Shown piece after piece: positions 48,272 to 57,827 of a DNA stretch of 64,000 nt. The notes under the pieces are model-generated. The model saw only the letters and a program-made list of their open reading frames with translations. It ran no database searches and had not been told where the DNA came from. The stretch lies in the NCBI GenBank assembly GCA_033819885.1, contig JAQYUZ010000030.1, positions 1 through 64,000 of the forward strand, read 5' to 3'. How positions within the stretch are numbered: position 1 is the stretch's first letter; each line of letters opens with the position of its first letter. The stretch is from Microbotryomycetes sp. JL201. Its lineage: Eukaryota; Basidiomycota; Microbotryomycetes. Both the position numbers and the translations under genes were made by a program.

Positions 48272-51200
48272 TTAAGCGACTTTGCTGTACAAGAGCAGGT
48301 AGGCGCTCTTTTCACTGTCAGTGCCGTAAGCGCCTTCACGTCCGACGGCGACATCGGCTGGCGAGATGGTCCGTATTTGCGTATCCTGTCGGGCAAGCGC
48401 CGACTCCGTCAACCAAACTTCTCGCGCACGCGCAACGCTGTCGGCAACGGCGACTTACATCAATGTGCAGCCAATTGTGACTGTTCAACTGTTGACGAAC
48501 AGCGACTGTGTAATGTCCGCCACTCGCGTACAAGCCATGATGATAGACGACTATCAAGACAAAAAACGTCAGCTCGAACAGGAGCGAACTCTCGAAAAAG
48601 ATGCAAACAAGACCAACCGCCAAAGAGTTGATACCTGGCCGGTTGTCCGCTCCTCTTAGCAGGCCCAATGATGTCTTGAGCAATCTCCAGCTCGGTGCCA
48701 TACCCGACAACCTTGCCACTCTTTTGAACGCCGCCAACGTTGTCGTACAGGAAACGTTTGAGGTGCAGGATCAACACCGGGGGGAACGTTTCGAGGAACA
48801 CTTGCTTTGTCGCCTCGACTCGCAACCCTGATCGAGACACAAAATCTGGCAAAGGCTCTGGCAAAGTCAAGTTGAGCAGTGCGTCTTCGATCGTCTTGAC
48901 GTGGTCAGGCTGTCGAAGAATCGGATCAAAGTCAGCCAAGCACAAAGGAAAAAGTCTACAGGGGAAAGGTCATTACCGAAATGTCAAGTTGCAATCGTTG
49001 GTACGGTTCGAGCGTGATTGAATCTTTCTGCCCCGGACACCGCAAAACTGATCTCAGTTGGCCACCGAATATTCGCGTGATCGGAGACTCGCGCGTCTCA
49101 GTCTGGCATGCGTAATTGTTAGCAATCAAAGGACCATGCCCGTGCAAGAAGACTACATACAGTCCGCGTCGTCGCTGTCCTGCCCTTGCTGCCGACCTCG
49201 AGCCACCCATCGTCACCGTTCTCGGCCACCTTGTCGTCCTGCTGATCCTTGTCCGCCCTATCAATGACGTACAAGATTTCGTCGTGCAAAGTGTCCAAAA
49301 AGAATCCTAGAAATTCTTCGGCGTCTTCTTGATGTCCTTTCGTCATGGGTTCGAATCGTTTGTTTGGCTTCAAGCTCTCGTACACAGCTTCCGGGACAAA
49401 AGGGTCGGACCAATCAGATGCTGGCAGCGGAATGAATGAATCTGCAGGAGGCGGAGTACTGGTTGATCCCGCCGTCGACGATTTTTGTCGGTGACGAGAC
49501 ACGACAGACACTTTTGACGATGACTTGAACTCGTCCAAAAAGTTCATCCTGCACATGTCGATTGACCCAAGTCAGCATTAGATTCCATCATCACGAACAA
49601 AATTCGCAAGACTTGCATAGCGTCCATCGTCGGCGTTTTGCCACTCAAATCTTGCCTCGTCTCGCTTCTGATGAGCGCCATCAAGTTCCAGAATGGTGAG
49701 CAATAGACGAGAACCTGCAAGATTGCGTTGGCAAAGCAGAGATTGCCGTTATTGATCAAGCCTCTGGGTACAATATTGGCGTTTGCAAAGGCATGCTCGA
49801 CGCCTTGCAATGCTTGCGCAAGTGTTCTTTTCTGAGGCGCCAAAGAGGCGGGATATGTTGCATTGCGACTGGATGACGGCGGGGGAGATGTGATTGCAAC
49901 AGCTGAAGACGAGCCGTTGACGAGAGGAGAGCCAGGAGCTGTGCCGGCAGGTGATCGCAGCAAATCGGCCCACGACCTTTTCATGCCAGCCGGAGTCGAT
50001 GCAGCAGTGGAAGCGGGAGACTTTGGCGTCATTGGTGTCGACGAAGCCGTATTGGTCGTCGTCGATTGACTCGTCTCGACTGACGTGGCAGCACTCGACG
50101 AAGCCGTCGACAGAGCGACAGCTGTCATCGTAGGAGGAACGTTTGCGGACGCAGCGGGACCATTTTGCTGTTCAAGGACAACCCCTCCAGTCGGTTCGTT
50201 CGAAGCTCCCTCGTTTTTATCATCGTTCTCGGCCGAGAGGATTACAGCCGTCTTCTTGTAAAGTGCCGGCACCTGGACGAAGGGCGAGATCGAGAACGGC
50301 GGCGTTGCGGTACTGAGAGACGGCGGCCGTAATCTCTTGTCCGATTTAGAGGTGGCAAGAGCCGGCGCCGGGTCAAAATTGTCGGGTTTTGTAAACAGGC
50401 GAGACACCTGAGCCGAGACAGGGTACTGTTGATGGTGGGAAAAGCCAGGTTGCATCATCGGCGGAAGCATGGACTGCGAGGGTGTCACCATGGCCATGCG
50501 CTGCGGGTCAAACGGTGGCAAAAGTTGCTGCCCGTTCACAAGAGAGGCAGTGGCGCCAGCGGGGGGATAGACGGGCGACATTGGCATGTAGGGAGGGGAC
50601 ATGGCAGCTGTGCTGCCCCTATGCCGTGTTGTAGGCGAGTGCTGTGAGCTGCTGCCGTTGCTAGTGTTGAAACGTGGTGGTGGTGCGCTGCCGTAGAACA
50701 TGCCTGCTCCTGCGCCGCCGGGGCGCGACTGTCCGCTATGAGGGTAGCTGTGAGGATGCTGCTGGGGCTGCTGTTGTAGATGGAAGGGGTGCATCTGGTT
50801 GTATTGATGGTGAGCAGGCGGTGGGGGCGGCTGGGTCGGGTATCGTGCGCTCCACGGCAGCGGCGGCTGGTGTTGTGGTTGCGTCTGAGACCTCGACAGG
50901 TTCTGATGCTGCCAGAACTGCTGTTGGTGTGCTGTCTGTGCCGACGATGCTGCTGCTGTGGCCGGTGACGACGCGGGCGAAGCGCGGCTGACGTCGTGAG
51001 CGCCTTCTGCAGGCGACTGGGCCCCATGTGGGCGGGCGTAGCGCGTACCAGCTGATCCGGACGGACCAGCATGACCTTGCGCGGGATCGTAAACGTTGTA
51101 GTATGGCTGGTTCGCCGAGGCGGACAAGGTCGCGTGAGGGCTGCTGCTACTGCTCGTCGATGCCGTCAGTGCGCCATAAGATGAGGGCGGCACAAAGGGC

Positions 51201-51310
51201 GGAGTGTGTACTGTCATGTCGGCGCTGCGAGGATAAAATTGGTGCGATTGCCGAGCGTGCTGCTGCTGATGAGGCGCCTGCTGTGGCTGCTGGGAAGCGT
51301 GTGCCGCCAT
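48272..51310 (-). CDS. UBP3: Ubiquitin-specific protease, Ubp3/USP10 family
   Basis: Deubiquitinase; yeast Ubp3 with Bre5 acts in ribophagy and vesicle traffic. A long disordered N-terminus (about 500 residues, rich in Gln, His, Pro, Ser) precedes the USP core: GLINNGNLCFANAILQVLVY with the catalytic Cys, GHQEDAEEFLGFFLDTLHDE, ITRIFGGQLRSVLRCPGQ, LPPVLILHLKRFLYD-like block (seen as FPPVLILHLKRFLYD) and the His box YHHGLYASGGHYTV, ending SAYLLLYSKVA. About seven introns. The join after PTMDAMQVL to MNFLDEF only works with a GC-AG intron (49607-49549). Divergent from the dsRBD-like repeat gene over 138 bp. Confidence 0.92.
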
Positions 51311-51448
51311 CGTCCTCCTAGCTCGCAATCAGCCGAGCTCCAAAGCTGGCAGGGACCCAAGTCGCGAGACGAGCAGGCGCGTCGAGTGTGCAATTGAAGC
51401 TGCGAGGGAGCGAAGGCGTTGCGCTTTGACCGCTTCGCCAGGCGCCCG

Positions 51449-54400
51449 ATGCCCGCCAAAGCAACGGCCCCTGCAACGCCAGCAAGCGCCGCACAGTCCC
51501 CTTCGTCGAGGAAGCGATCCGCTAGGCAGGCAGCAAGCACCGCGTCAACGTCAGCGAACGACGGACAGAGCCCCGCGCCCAAGCGGTCAAAGCGCAACGC
51601 GCCGTCTGCACCTCAGCAATCACCAGAGCGAGCATCACTGTCGGCAACGCCCAACTCTCCTCGTAGCCAAACAGTCGCAGGCGTAGACACGCAGCCGGCA
51701 GACGGGCAAGTCGAAATGAACGCCAGTTCGACAGCCGAACCCCAGCCATCCGTCACCGAAAGCTTGCTCAAAGCAGGCGCACAACCCATCACAGACCTCG
51801 ACAGACAGTTCGGACTCAAGTTCGTGTACGTGGCGCTGTGCGACACACTGCGTCGAGCATGAGGGGCGCCCGCCCGAGCGAGAGCTGACTTGCCACCTGT
51901 CTACGTGTTTGTAGCGAACGCGCAACATCAACAAACGCTCCTCCAGCTACTGGACTAGCAAACACGTTCGAAAGCGAGTCATTGACTGCAGAACAGCTCG
52001 CGAAGCTCAAAGACGCAGAGTGAGCTCAGGCCTCTCGATGCCTTTACAACTTGCGCTTACAACCCTCATGTCGCGACGTCAGTCCCTCCGCGTTTGTCAC
52101 ACATTTCTGGCGGCAAAACATTGCCAAGCACCACTTGCCGCGATGGGAATTCTATTCGTTGCAGCCAACGAAATTCAGCTGCTCTCTTTTCGTCTATATG
52201 CCACCGAAACACTCGCGCGCCTACACCGCGGAGGGGACCTACGCTTCAAAGGATGCTGCACGCGACGCAGCATCTCGCACAGCTATCCGAGACGGCGCTC
52301 CTGAACGCGCAAAGGCCGCTAGGTCGCTCGCAGGCAACGAAGCAAACGACTTGGCCGCGCAAGGGGTCAGTGGCAGTCACTTTGAGACGGTCGAAAACCC
52401 AGTCGGCGTACTGCACGAGGCCGTGCAGAAATACGCCATCGAGCAACGGCCGTCGTACGAGTACACGATTGACAGATTGACGGACTTGCATGGCGTCATC
52501 ATCACCTGTCCTGTGTCTCCACGCTTGTCTCAAACGTGGCAGGTAGATCCTGTCTTCTTGTCTCGCAAGGAAGCGAAAGATGCCGTCACCCGCTTGGCAC
52601 TCAAAAACGGCATCATGGAGACGTACTCGGAGCATGCCAGGACACGTCAACCTCCGATGGTGACTACCGGCTCGAATGGGCCAGCTAGAGCTGTTTCTGG
52701 ATCAAAGTTACCGTCGGATGTGCAGAAAGATGCCATCGAGGTTCTCAACCGTGAGGCAGTTGCAGCGTTCGGCAGCGTCAAGTGCCTCAAATGGAGCGTC
52801 ACCCACGCATACAAAGCTCTCGAAGGCAACTGTGAGTCGGCCGCGAGACGTGCTCTTGTTCGTCGGCCTGACTAGCGAAATTGCGCAGCCGAATCAACAC
52901 TTGTGAGCGGTGTCGACTTGCATGTCGCGCTCGGACCTTTGAAGACCAGGGTCTTTTCGATAGAGCCGAGCTTTCTAGATCTGAATCATGCGCGGACGGC
53001 CGTCGCTAGCAAAGCCCTGTCGGAAGGCATCCTGGACGAAATCCGAGCTCATGCGACCCAGAAAGCGGTTGCTTCCCAGGTGGGCGCCGAAGCGCATTTA
53101 CCCCTCACGCAACCTTTCGTCGCATCAGCTGCACCTGTCTCGGCCGAGCAAGCCGAGACAATGCCCGAGTGCGTGCCAATCTCTTTGGCGAGGGAGCTTA
53201 TGCTGACCAAGCGAGTGACGTTCCAGCCCGGTTTCGTATCTGAATCTGTTCATGCAGAAGTGGACCGCCACAACAGCGCCCTTGGCTTTCGACTACGCTC
53301 AAGTCCACGGTGAGGACGTCGGGGCATGCCAGAAACGAAACCGAGACAACTGACCTGCATTCCTCGCAGGTGGATTCAGCTGTACGCTCAAGGTCGTGGT
53401 ACGCGGTCAGGAGTATTCGTACGCCTCGCCTTTCTCTTTTCCCTCCAAAAAACTCGCCAAAGAGGCTGCGGTGCGCACAGCGCTTCGTGAAGGCGTTACC
53501 TCGCTCGTTCGACCTGCAGGCGCGGGATTTGCCCAGACACCAGCGGCTGCGTCTTCTGCTGCGAAAACACCTCCATCTGTTTCTGGACTGCCTGAGAGCG
53601 GTCAGGCAGTACCGACACAGCCGCTGAGCCAGATCGGGAACGCCGTCGGATCGACATGCATGGAGCAGCTCGACAAGCTGTTTGACGATTATTCCCCAGA
53701 CGGATCATTGCCCGACTATACCACTCAGCGTGATCCTCAGAGTAGGTTTCGTTTCGACGGGCTCATGACTGCACGATTTCTGACGGCAATTGATCTGGTC
53801 AGCCGGTTTGTTTGGCGCCCAAGTCCAGATTCCTACGCCTGATGGCGCGAAGACAGTGACCGTCACACCAAATCAGCCGTCGAGGCTAGCAGCCCAAGAA
53901 GCTGTTGCTGTCCAGGTGTTCAGACAAGGCTTGCACAAGCAGTTCAAGCAGCTGTGGCAGCAAGCCAATCCGCCAAAACATGATCCAGCAAGACCTGAGG
54001 ATATGGCGGGACCGTTTGCTTCAAAGATCGTGTCGGTGTGCGAGGTCTTGTTTGACGAGGACGGGCGCAGACCCGTGTTTACAGTTTCGTCACGCTCTGA
54101 TAGTGAGCGCAATCCGTCTCCGGAAGACGCACGTGCTCGAATGACTGATTGATGCGTTACGTTCTAGACGGACCTTTCGGTGCGGCAATGTCTCTACAGT
54201 TGTCACAAGACAATGTGATCGAAACCTCGATTACTTCCGAGTACGAGACGCGCCGGAATGCCGTCGAGGCCGTCGCGCAACGCGCTATCCAAGACGAGTC
54301 CGTGTTGGCCAAGATCAAAGCTGCTGTCGCTGTTGGTATCTCTCAAGGTGCTCCTGCATCATCTGTGGATGCTACTGCGCCATCAGGACCGCCGACGCCA

Positions 54401-54712
54401 ACCGCAAATACGAGACCGACGGCGCGAAGCTTGTATGAGGCGAAGGACCACAGGCAGTCACCAAATCTTGTCCCAGCTGCACAGAGCTCAGTACCGGTCG
54501 ATTTGAACGAAGCTTCGCCTCCTGCCGATGTCGCCGAACCTGAACCGACATCGGCGAACGTTGAAGCCGCGGACGAGCCAGCTGCCGACACTCCAAATGA
54601 GCGCTCGAATCCCGTTCCCACCAAGCCCACTGCGTACGCAAATGTTACAAATCTCGAAGGCAAGTTTTGCCACTTTGCGAAGAACACTCAAACCGCGAAT
54701 TGACTTTTTTGG

Positions 54713-54745
<33 letters not shown>

Positions 54746-55021
54746 GTGTTTTTATCGGTTCCACGATGGTCTATCCTTGCAGACTACTGCGACTTGAAAA
54801 ACTTGCCAAGACCAATCTATAACGTTCAACCTTCTACCACAGATCCATCCGTCCCACCTCGGATATGGGTCACGATCGGACATACCAAATTTGAATTGCC
54901 TCCTTCGAAAAAGGGTTCAAGCTTAAAGCAAAACGACGTCGAGTCTATGAAGGACAGGTTGGCCGGAAAAATAATGAGTTATGTCAAGAGTGGTAAAGAC
55001 ATTGGCGTTTCTGGGTCTTAG
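51449..55021 (+). CDS. Protein of about seven tandem dsRBD-like repeats, unknown function
   Basis: About nine exons. After an Ala/Ser/Pro-rich N-terminus with a basic KRSKRN patch, the same layout recurs seven times: a helix, a Pro/aromatic strand (LPRWEF, RPSYEY, LPRPIYNV), a beta hairpin, then a helix of the form xxxAxxxAxxxAlxxGi. Helix examples: SKDAARDAASRTAIRDG (about 52240), SRKEAKDAVTRLALKNGI (52560), LNHARTAVASKALSEGIL (52990), PSKKLAKEAAVRTALREGV (53440), SRLAAQEAVAVQVFRQGL (53880), TRRNAVEAVAQRAIQDES (54250). The last unit (54783-55010) ends VESMKDRLAGKIMSYV. This is the dsRBD alpha-beta-beta-beta-alpha plan, with the Lys pair for RNA clear only in unit four. One intron is GC-AG and holds a T29 run. 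No named family recognised. Confidence 0.75.
54715..54743 (+). repeat. T29 homopolymer inside the last intron of the dsRBD-like gene
   Basis: A run of 29 T bases lies about 40 nt before the acceptor at 54782, inside the GC-AG intron 54660-54782. It may serve as an extreme pyrimidine tract and is a likely site of length variation. Confidence 0.9.
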
Positions 55022-55301: not shown

Positions 55302-57827
55302 TTAGTCCTTGTACCTGCTTCGATCAAGAAAGAACGTACGTTGTTCACGAAGGTTGAGAACCCATCTGTTGTACAACATTTGAGCAATCGGGCTTCGACC
55401 GTCCTCGCTCTGCGGCGACGGCGAGGCTGAATCCGTAAACACGTCGTTGGGTGGAGCAGCGTCCGTATCCTTTGTCGCTCGAGACGGAATGGTTCCTAGC
55501 AGAGCCGGAGCAGAATGCATCAACGCTCGACGCGTAGTATCGTCGCTGCAAGGAAAACGCAATGCATTAGCTGAATCGGAGCGGTCCAAGCCATCAACCG
55601 AAACTGACTCGTTCATGGTTGCGAGCAATTCCGACACGAATCTGAATGCGAGATTCGGATTTGTCGATCCTAATTGGTTGAAGCCTTGCTCAATCAGACT
55701 GAGAGATTGACTCTCGTCGACCTTTGCACTGCCAGCCATAGCTCGGCACGTGTCAATGACTGTATCGGCCAGCTTCCGACCTATGTCAGAGGTCATGGAA
55801 CTGGTCGGCCTGCCGTCAAGGTCGGGAGTCGTCTCGTTCGATGCTTGACCATCCGCCGGTTGCGAAAAAATTGAGGCCGAACTTGACTTGCGAGTTGAGG
55901 ATGCAACAGAGGATAACACAGGCGAGAGTAACGGGGGCGGAGCAGTCATCTCTGGCGCGCCTATTCTCGATGGTCTAAATGTACGAGCATCGGTCGGTGA
56001 GCTGTAACGGACCATCGTCAGAACAATCACAAGACGATGAAGCCTTGCTCTTACAGCGATTGTTGACAGACAGCAGATGCCCTCGGCAAATCGCCCTGCT
56101 CAAAACCGGTGTGACCGTCGCCGATGAGAGACTCCATGGACGGGTCCGGTCCTGTAGCTGCTCGTGCACACTGACATGGCCCGTGTCAGTACACGTCAGT
56201 CCATGTCGGGGTGCTTACTTCTACTTCGGGTCTCACCTCGTCCGGCTTTGTGACGGTACTCTGCAGAGTGTCAAACGACCAAGCGCTCATGAGTGTTCCG
56301 TCGTCTCTGTCCTCAGCTTTTTGCTCCTCCTTTGTCCGTTGTTTCCTTGGGCTTTTGGCTCGCCATTCTTGATATCGTTTGACGAGATCCGTCAAATGCG
56401 AGGTTTTGCGTGCATACTTGACGAAACGATGCTGCAACAATTCTTTCGCAGACGGACGCTGTGCGAACGGTACAATTTCGAGTGAAAGTCAGCACATCTT
56501 GTCTCGTCTTGAGTCCGGGTCTGCGCTTGCCTGCGCCGGATCTTTGATCAAACATAACGATACAAACTCTTTGAAAGCCGCTCCAAACTCGGGTCCTTCC
56601 AAGCTTGGCGCTCTTGCTTTCGGAATCAAAAACAAAACCCGCATTGGGTGGTATTCCGCCAGGGGTGGTTCTCCTTTGGCCAATTCGATAGCCGTGATGC
56701 CCAGTGACCAGATATCGGCCTTTGAATCGTAGCCAGACTGACGAATGACCTCGGGTGCCATCCAATATGGAGTGCCTACATGGACGTATTCACATGAGTG
56801 CGGCTGACTGCAAAACTGGGACGTCCACGCACCAACGAACGTGTTTCGTCGTCCAAGGGTAGCCGTTAATTGTGCAGCCACGCCAAAGTCGGCTGTACAT
56901 TCGTGAGAGTCAGGAAAGGACATTACGATCGTGTTCTAGACGTCAAACGGACCGAGCTTGACCGAACCTGCAGCCGAAAGTAGAATGTTTGCAGCTGGCA
57001 AGGAGAAGGAAATCAGAGGCACAGACTGATGTTGGCGGTCGATGTGCCAGACAAACCTTTGATGTCACGGTGAATCTTGTTTTCCTTGTGCAAATACTGG
57101 AGACCCAGGAGCATTTCGCGACAGAGGATCGCAATGTGCATTTCTGCCAGAGGACCTGGCTTGATCTGGACGGTTCGCGGAGCTGTCAGCCGGCGGTTGC
57201 AATACGCATTGCAAAGCACTTCGAGTCACCAGATCGAGACACGAGCCTCCCGCGAGGTATTCCATAACTGGGGGGTTTCAGAAGTCAGTTACAGATTTAG
57301 GCCCAAGTGTGGTGTGCTAATCCAGAGGCGCTGGCGGCGGTAGCCCACCTATCCACAATTTGTAACCTTTGACAAAGCTGCCAAAGACTTTTGTGACGTG
57401 TGGAGAGTCGCAATCGCTCATGTGGGCGATTTCGAGTTGGACTTCGTTGATTTCGTCTTCAGAATCGTCGAGGTCTATTTGTTTGATTGCAACCGGTCTC
57501 GATGTGGGCAGGTGAAGTCTTTATGATGATGTAGGGATGTACCAGCGGAGCGAAACACGCGCCACAAGTTAGCCTGAAGGCTGATGGCACGTGACTTGAT
57601 GAGAACGAGTAAGAAAGAGCTCACGCCTTGTAAACGGTGCCGAAAGACCCTGTGCCGAGCTTGTCGAGCAGTTGATAGTCACTATCGGTAGCGAACCGGA
57701 TCAGCTATGTACCTTGCCGTGCGTTGCGCGAGTACGATCTGCGACTCGGACGTTTCACCATACTGCGCAAGACTGACCTGCTCGGATCGTGTGACAGGCC
57801 GCGTCGATGTTGACTCATGATAGGCAT
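55302..57827 (-). CDS. Ste20-like protein kinase, GCK-III type (Kic1/Nak1/Don3 relatives)
   Basis: Ser/Thr kinase of the MOR/RAM polarity and septation type. The short N-terminus [17 protein letters not shown] joins over an intron to [19 protein letters not shown]. Then [92 protein letters not shown] and [20 protein letters not shown]. The C-terminal part carries [19 protein letters not shown], a long Ser-rich region and a helical end ([18 protein letters not shown]) like the dimerisation tail of fungal GCKs. About seven introns. Ustilago Don3 and yeast Kic1 are the closest known types; which one cannot be settled here. Confidence 0.9.

Follow-up and report, generated by a model that had tools for sequence, protein, structure and literature searches.

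A fungal protein with seven dsRBD-like units from Microbotryomycetes sp. JL201, a predicted scaffold for double-stranded RNA

The gene OIV83_004452 of Microbotryomycetes sp. JL201, a hypothetical protein in the NCBI annotation, occupies positions 51449-55021 (+ strand) of the window, by which we mean the whole stretch of 64,000 nucleotides of contig JAQYUZ010000030.1 analyzed here (our contig C24, 215,901 bases in a genome of 17.15 Mb). Its product contains seven units resembling the double-stranded RNA-binding domain (dsRBD), several of them degenerate. The original prediction had described exactly such a fungal protein, and a fold model together with sequence comparisons now upholds this description, while the span of the gene is confirmed by a nine-exon model. 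The original prediction knew of no named fungal family with seven such units, and none was returned by Pfam, NCBIfam or fold searches. With a probability of about 0.55 we propose a scaffold protein for double-stranded RNA (dsRNA), in which units 1, 2 and 4 would face RNA and the degenerate units would face proteins.

The fold was predicted by AlphaFold for the related protein of NB124-2 from a three-sequence alignment (A3). As anticipated, the order helix-strand-strand-strand-helix was obtained in all seven units. Thus, the whole array is predicted, at modest confidence, to share the topology of the dsRBD fold superfamily. The model of unit 7, which carries two extra short strands, is derived from two sequences, since the JL201 protein deposited at NCBI and included in A3 lacks this unit. 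A Foldseek search with the whole model yielded five PDB matches at E<=0.001, which are one Dicer and dsRBD proteins acting as Dicer partners. The best of the whole-model matches, TRBP, Loquacious, R2D2 and DRB4, possess two or three dsRBDs, whereas the JL201 protein has seven units. Unit 4 has Staufen dsRBD5 (5cff) as one of its structural matches.

Sequence comparisons point in the same direction. Pfam matches were listed up to E<=5 for three database proteins (from JL201, NB124-2 and JL221) and up to E<=10 for our 998-residue JL201 model. For the latter, three families appeared, all of the dsRBD type: DND1_DSRM (14.8 bits, unit 7), dsrm (13.4 bits, unit 4) and Dicer_dimer (8.2 bits, unit 5). 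In NB124-2 Dicer_dimer (PF03368) reaches 33.5 bits (E 4e-8, cut-off 23.7) with its best stretch in unit 4; the value for JL201 stays below the cut-off, and the family was not listed for JL221 or for the NCBI protein of JL201 (P0001). A resemblance to the Dicer dimerization domain (PF03368, DUF283) is seen in unit 4 of NB124-2. The protein differs from Dicer in that no RNase III or helicase Pfam domain was listed for the three database proteins or the JL201 model. Unit 7 alone matched DND1_DSRM at E 0.008, below the cut-off, and nothing was listed for single units 1, 3, 4 (in its draft form) and 6. A 1014-residue draft of the protein served as the query for these single-unit scans, for phmmer against the PDB, for the search of the own genome and for one protein search; the corrected 998-residue protein was scanned anew with Pfam. 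With the draft, phmmer found no PDB match and the own-genome search returned only the protein itself. NCBIfam gave one chance match and nothing else. Transglut_core3 (E 1.2), listed by Pfam for the draft, was discarded.

Further comparisons were made with profiles, named U1 to U7 after the units. A whole-protein profile (A1) found three weak matches in the PDB, the best being the uncharacterized 2l9p (E 0.4), whose name does not mark it as a dsRBD, and the other two DUS2. The joint U1-U6 profile had DUS2 dsRBDs as its top six sequences (E 0.008-0.31). This search runs close to the noise, because further down PPM1K phosphatase and GFP rows (E 0.45-1.1) are intermixed with HYL1 and an ancestral Dicer. 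In DUS2 and DND1 one dsRBD is joined to domains of other kinds, and the likeness to either of them, as first PDB matches of U1-U6 and best Pfam match of U7, respectively, is weak. All seven sequences listed for U4 are of the dsRBD type or ancestral Dicer (E 0.035-1.4), and R2D2 provides the top three of the four matches of U7 (E 0.05-0.06). Against a reference of seven dsRBDs from ADAR1, TRBP and Loqs, U4 gave 86% and U7 65%, followed by U2 (19%), U1 (9%), U3 (1%), U5 (0.8%) and U6 (0.2%). The real score was reached by none of 60 column shuffles for U4, U7 and U2, by one for U1, four for U3, three for U5 and 21 for U6. Because of these low values, only the modeled fold and the relatedness to U1, U2 and U4 connect U3, U5 and U6 with the dsRBD. 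Pairwise scores of single units with single dsRBDs were mixed, U4 being the strongest and U3 and U6 weak.

Several observations weigh against the proposed scaffold. No dsRBD-type Pfam model reaches its cut-off in JL201; for PF00035 (dsrm) the required 23 bits are missed by JL201 (13.4), NB124-2 (14.6) and P0001 (13.7), and the family is not listed for JL221. Unit 2 alone gave two unrelated chance matches in Pfam (E 0.04-0.07), its profile matched nothing in the PDB, and it is acidic, with a net charge of -2 to -6. Against the dsRBD reference, the reversed U4 profile reaches 21.4, compared with 31.6 for the real one, and for U5 and U6 reversal even raises the score (from 12.8 to 13.8 and from 9.7 to 11.3, respectively). 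The predicted local distance difference test (pLDDT) values are modest: the mean is 47 for the NB124-2 chain and 58, 45, 58, 63, 71, 66 and 63 for units 1 to 7 (from ten-residue blocks), being lowest in unit 2, whose helix 1 and strand 1 fall below 50. A single-sequence AlphaFold run on exon 3 had a pLDDT of 33 and was set aside. The structure alignments (Foldseek, VIA) are direct mainly for U4 and U5. An RNA-dependent RNA polymerase was not found in the own genome by a search that gave no match in control genomes either. Finally, RNA binding and the partner are both predictions.

The Pfam scores of JL201 below the cut-offs, the modest pLDDT and the failure of U3, U5 and U6 to meet the dsRBD reference directly would also suit a chance resemblance, that is, a helix/strand repeat other than a dsRBD. 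This is very improbable, since the fold search, the Pfam match of NB124-2 above the cut-off, the PDB profiles, the kinship of the units and the intron sites all agree.

The RNA-contacting residues suggest which units would bind RNA. In canonical dsRBDs the contact motif KKxAK lies at the start of the last helix. Unit 4 (residues 505-578, 53228-53509; this and all following unit positions on the + strand), the unit nearest to known dsRBDs and Dicer_dimer, reads SKKLAK, SKKLAK and SKKAAK in the three species, and unit 2 (residues 267-342, 52399-52626) reads SRRDAK, SRKEAK and SRKEAK. Hence, the basic triplet is present in both units in all three species. Unit 1 (residues 165-237, 52093-52311) retains two of the three basic positions (SKTEAK, SKDAAR, SRTEAK). 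The earlier view that unit 4 alone shows these lysines clearly must accordingly be corrected, since unit 2 has the triplet in every species and unit 1 has it in part. Units 3 (residues 376-462, 52726-53043), 5 (residues 628-703, 53657-53945) and 6 (residues 727-805, 54015-54316; closest to unit 5) are degenerate and lack the full triplet, with at most one or two basic residues. Unit 7 (residues 911-991, 54632-54997) is dsRBD-like and stands outside the family of units 1-6. It has an invariant KK just before the last helix; its motif is ambiguous, because the pair precedes the helix, yet the profile aligns it with the SKK of the reference. The isoelectric points (pI) of units 1 and 4 are 9.4-9.9 in all three species. 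Units 3, 5 and 6 are acidic to neutral, save unit 5 of JL221, and unit 7 is basic in two of three species. The linkers between the units look disordered.

Unit 2 had been called nearly textbook, which holds in part. It is the most conserved unit on average (66-74% identity between species; unit 3 reaches 75% in one pair) and has a classic dsRBD start, NPVGxLHExxQK, resembling NPVGALQELVVQK of TRBP dsRBD2. However, its profile finds nothing in the PDB, and that of unit 4 is nearer to known dsRBDs. The local match to TRBP dsRBD2 covers the first ten residues only, and profile alignments do not place the His of unit 2 (TDLHG) on the canonical loop His.

We propose that units 2, 4 and probably 1, in which basic residues persist where the last helix starts, would contact dsRNA together. 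Units 3, 5 and 6, having lost most of these residues, may serve as protein-binding or dimerizing modules; we liken them to the last dsRBD of Staufen and of TRBP/Loquacious, which serves protein binding. Unit 7 could face either RNA or protein. If RNA binding were lost altogether, all seven units would be protein-protein modules. The missing triplets of units 3, 5 and 6 and the acidic unit 2 would fit, as would unit 4 of NB124-2, which passes as Dicer_dimer, a domain to which a survey of fungal Dicers ascribes mainly protein-protein contacts (PMC12663654). Still, such a complete loss appears unlikely in view of the triplet kept by units 2 and 4 in all three species and of the high pI of units 1 and 4.

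Computation supports a common origin of units 1-6 in a single unit of the dsRBD fold that was duplicated within the protein. Real scores between the profiles U1-U6 range from 15.7 to 48, and 14 of the 15 pairs lie above all of 40 column shuffles; the exceptional pair is U3-U4, whose score is reached by two of 40. Reversed profiles of different units score up to 18.3, so that three of the 15 pairs are not clearly above this ceiling (U3-U4, 15.7; U3-U5, 19.0; U4-U6, 19.8). No kinship was detected between unit 7 and any of the other six, since shuffles reach its scores 8-34 times of 40, and the joint U1-U6 profile shows no similarity to U7.

The introns retain a corresponding pattern. Phase-1 introns at 52832, 53310, 53742 and 54103 lie in the β1-β2 loop of units 3, 4, 5 and 6 (alignment columns 40, 44, 42 and 42), and a phase-2 intron splitting an Asp codon precedes both unit 1 and unit 4. 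An equally tight cluster of four introns arose in 7 of 200,000 trials of uniform random placement, in a simulation that was set up after the pattern had been seen and assumes uniformity. In alignment A4, the placement of unit 3 by MAFFT is poor. The shared β1-β2 intron is likely a fossil of the duplication. In the simplest history, one ancestral unit with introns before helix 1 and in the β1-β2 loop gave rise to six units by duplication, some introns being lost on the way, and unit 7 is a C-terminal dsRBD of other origin. The units would thereby form a natural set in which one fold is preserved to varying degrees and its duplication is recorded in introns.

The predicted model consists of exons 51449-51825, 51915-52019, 52083-52831, 52889-53168, 53227-53309, 53370-53741, 53803-54102, 54168-54659 and 54783-55021 on the + strand and encodes 998 residues with no internal stop. 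The 1014-residue draft was dropped, since the NCBI protein and the relatives reveal an extra intron (53169-53226) in unit 4. P0001 has 933 residues, of which 1-919 are identical to our model. Beyond residue 919 the NCBI model reads through intron 8, a GC-AG intron of 123 nucleotides (54660-54782, + strand), and therefore the public JL201 protein lacks unit 7. Splicing of this intron is supported by the alignment of unit 7 of the two relatives (P0002 and P0003) with the last exon. The exon aligns well with NB124-2 and JL221, and TIGxTKFELPPxKK is common to all three. A run of 29 T (54715-54743) is located inside the intron.

Searches of 5.8 billion proteins returned three proteins, all from Microbotryomycetes: the JL201 gene product, NB124-2 (1049 residues) and JL221 (1199 residues). 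These searches are sensitive to near relatives only, and in two of them only candidates sharing most words were scored. The survey of repeat number across fungi accordingly comprises these three, and no animal Staufen orthologue was among the returns, within the same limited sensitivity. All seven units can be traced in NB124-2 and JL221. In the three species pairs, identity is 70, 49 and 49% in the units and 41, 31 and 30% outside them. Unit 1 of NB124-2 is 68 and 51% identical to its orthologues and 12-30% to other units (A4). Since the orthologues of unit 1 are far closer than other units and all seven are kept, the array predates the split of the three species and its number has been maintained.

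Possible partners were considered from the gene content of the genome. It has an Argonaute with a Piwi domain (C2:417186-417881) and a Dicer-like gene (C20:98001-108000, - strand) with Dicer_dimer just over the cut-off and a divergent RNase III motif. When six protein pieces of this locus were compared with Pfam, Ribonuclease_3 gave E 0.018, and beyond Dicer_dimer the rest gave nothing or chance matches; the RNase III piece found nothing in the PDB by phmmer. PF00035 is matched just once in the genome, in an RNase III-like gene on C24 that presumably encodes the mitochondrial ribosomal protein mL44. Consequently, the Dicer-like gene has no dsRBD detectable exon by exon, a search that a divergent or split dsRBD would escape. 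With Argonaute and a Dicer-like gene present, a Dicer partner is conceivable, and we suggest, tentatively and with rather low confidence, that the scaffold would bring dsRNA to this Dicer-like enzyme. In such a complex, long dsRNA would be bound by units 1, 2 and 4 and Dicer by the degenerate units. That the protein is a fungal Dicer partner with the largest dsRBD array described, providing in trans a dsRBD that appears to be missing from many fungal Dicers, is unlikely on present data. In the survey, which covered 1592 fungal proteomes, 62.7% of fungal Dicers had no detectable PAZ and dsRBD, with the caution that domains too divergent to be recognized may have been missed, and DUF283 is described as a primarily protein-protein module that binds dsRBD cofactors (PMC12663654). 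The part of the source consulted on the Cryptococcus RNA interference factors Rde1-5 describes none of them as a protein with several dsRBDs (PMC6643885). A seven-unit scaffold in a basidiomycete yeast that has Argonaute and a Dicer-like gene would offer a testable answer to how fungal Dicers without a detectable dsRBD hold dsRNA.

A scaffold for the handling of messenger or ribosomal RNA, with no part in RNA interference, is a serious though less probable account. Staufen of animals, a multi-dsRBD scaffold of five dsRBDs with binding and non-binding copies, has the same architecture of mixed RNA-binding-like and degenerate units. A nuclear role would fit the KRSK stretch, which is invariant in the three proteins and lies within PKRSKRN of the N-terminal tail (51578-51598, + strand), a sequence we take to be a possible nuclear localization signal. 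In addition, the two neighboring genes examined, related to a ubiquitin hydrolase and a kinase, provide no link to RNA interference. On the other hand, nothing connects the protein to messenger or ribosomal RNA, and all five structural matches at E<=0.001 belong to Dicer or its partners, although this could simply reflect an abundance of such proteins among the multi-dsRBD structures that have been solved. The JL201 protein further differs from Staufen in having seven units, in its fungal origin and in the lack of detected sequence orthology.

Animals and plants have dsRBD scaffolds such as Staufen, TRBP and HYL1. To our knowledge, the five dsRBDs of Staufen are the largest array, and no second fungal protein with seven dsRBD-like units is known to us. 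In the open-access literature we found no fungal dsRBD scaffold, no protein with six or seven dsRBDs, nothing joining Microbotryomycetes with dsRNA-binding and no paper under the name of the strain.

Outside the units, two motifs are almost invariant amid variable stretches of the three proteins and may be docking sites. These are SVTxSLLxAGAQPITDLDxQFGxKFV in the N-terminal region, spread across intron 1 (51749-51915, + strand), and RPTAxSxYE (54413-54439). A conserved helix, PERAKAARSLAG, follows unit 1 (52300-52335, + strand). No tRNA and no Rfam family were found within the window. Upstream, two pieces of a divergent neighbor (49119-51328, - strand) match ubiquitin carboxyl-terminal hydrolase just below the cut-off. 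With about 140 bases between the likely start codons, the two genes may share a promoter region. Downstream, a piece of a protein kinase domain is located at 56489-56935 (- strand).
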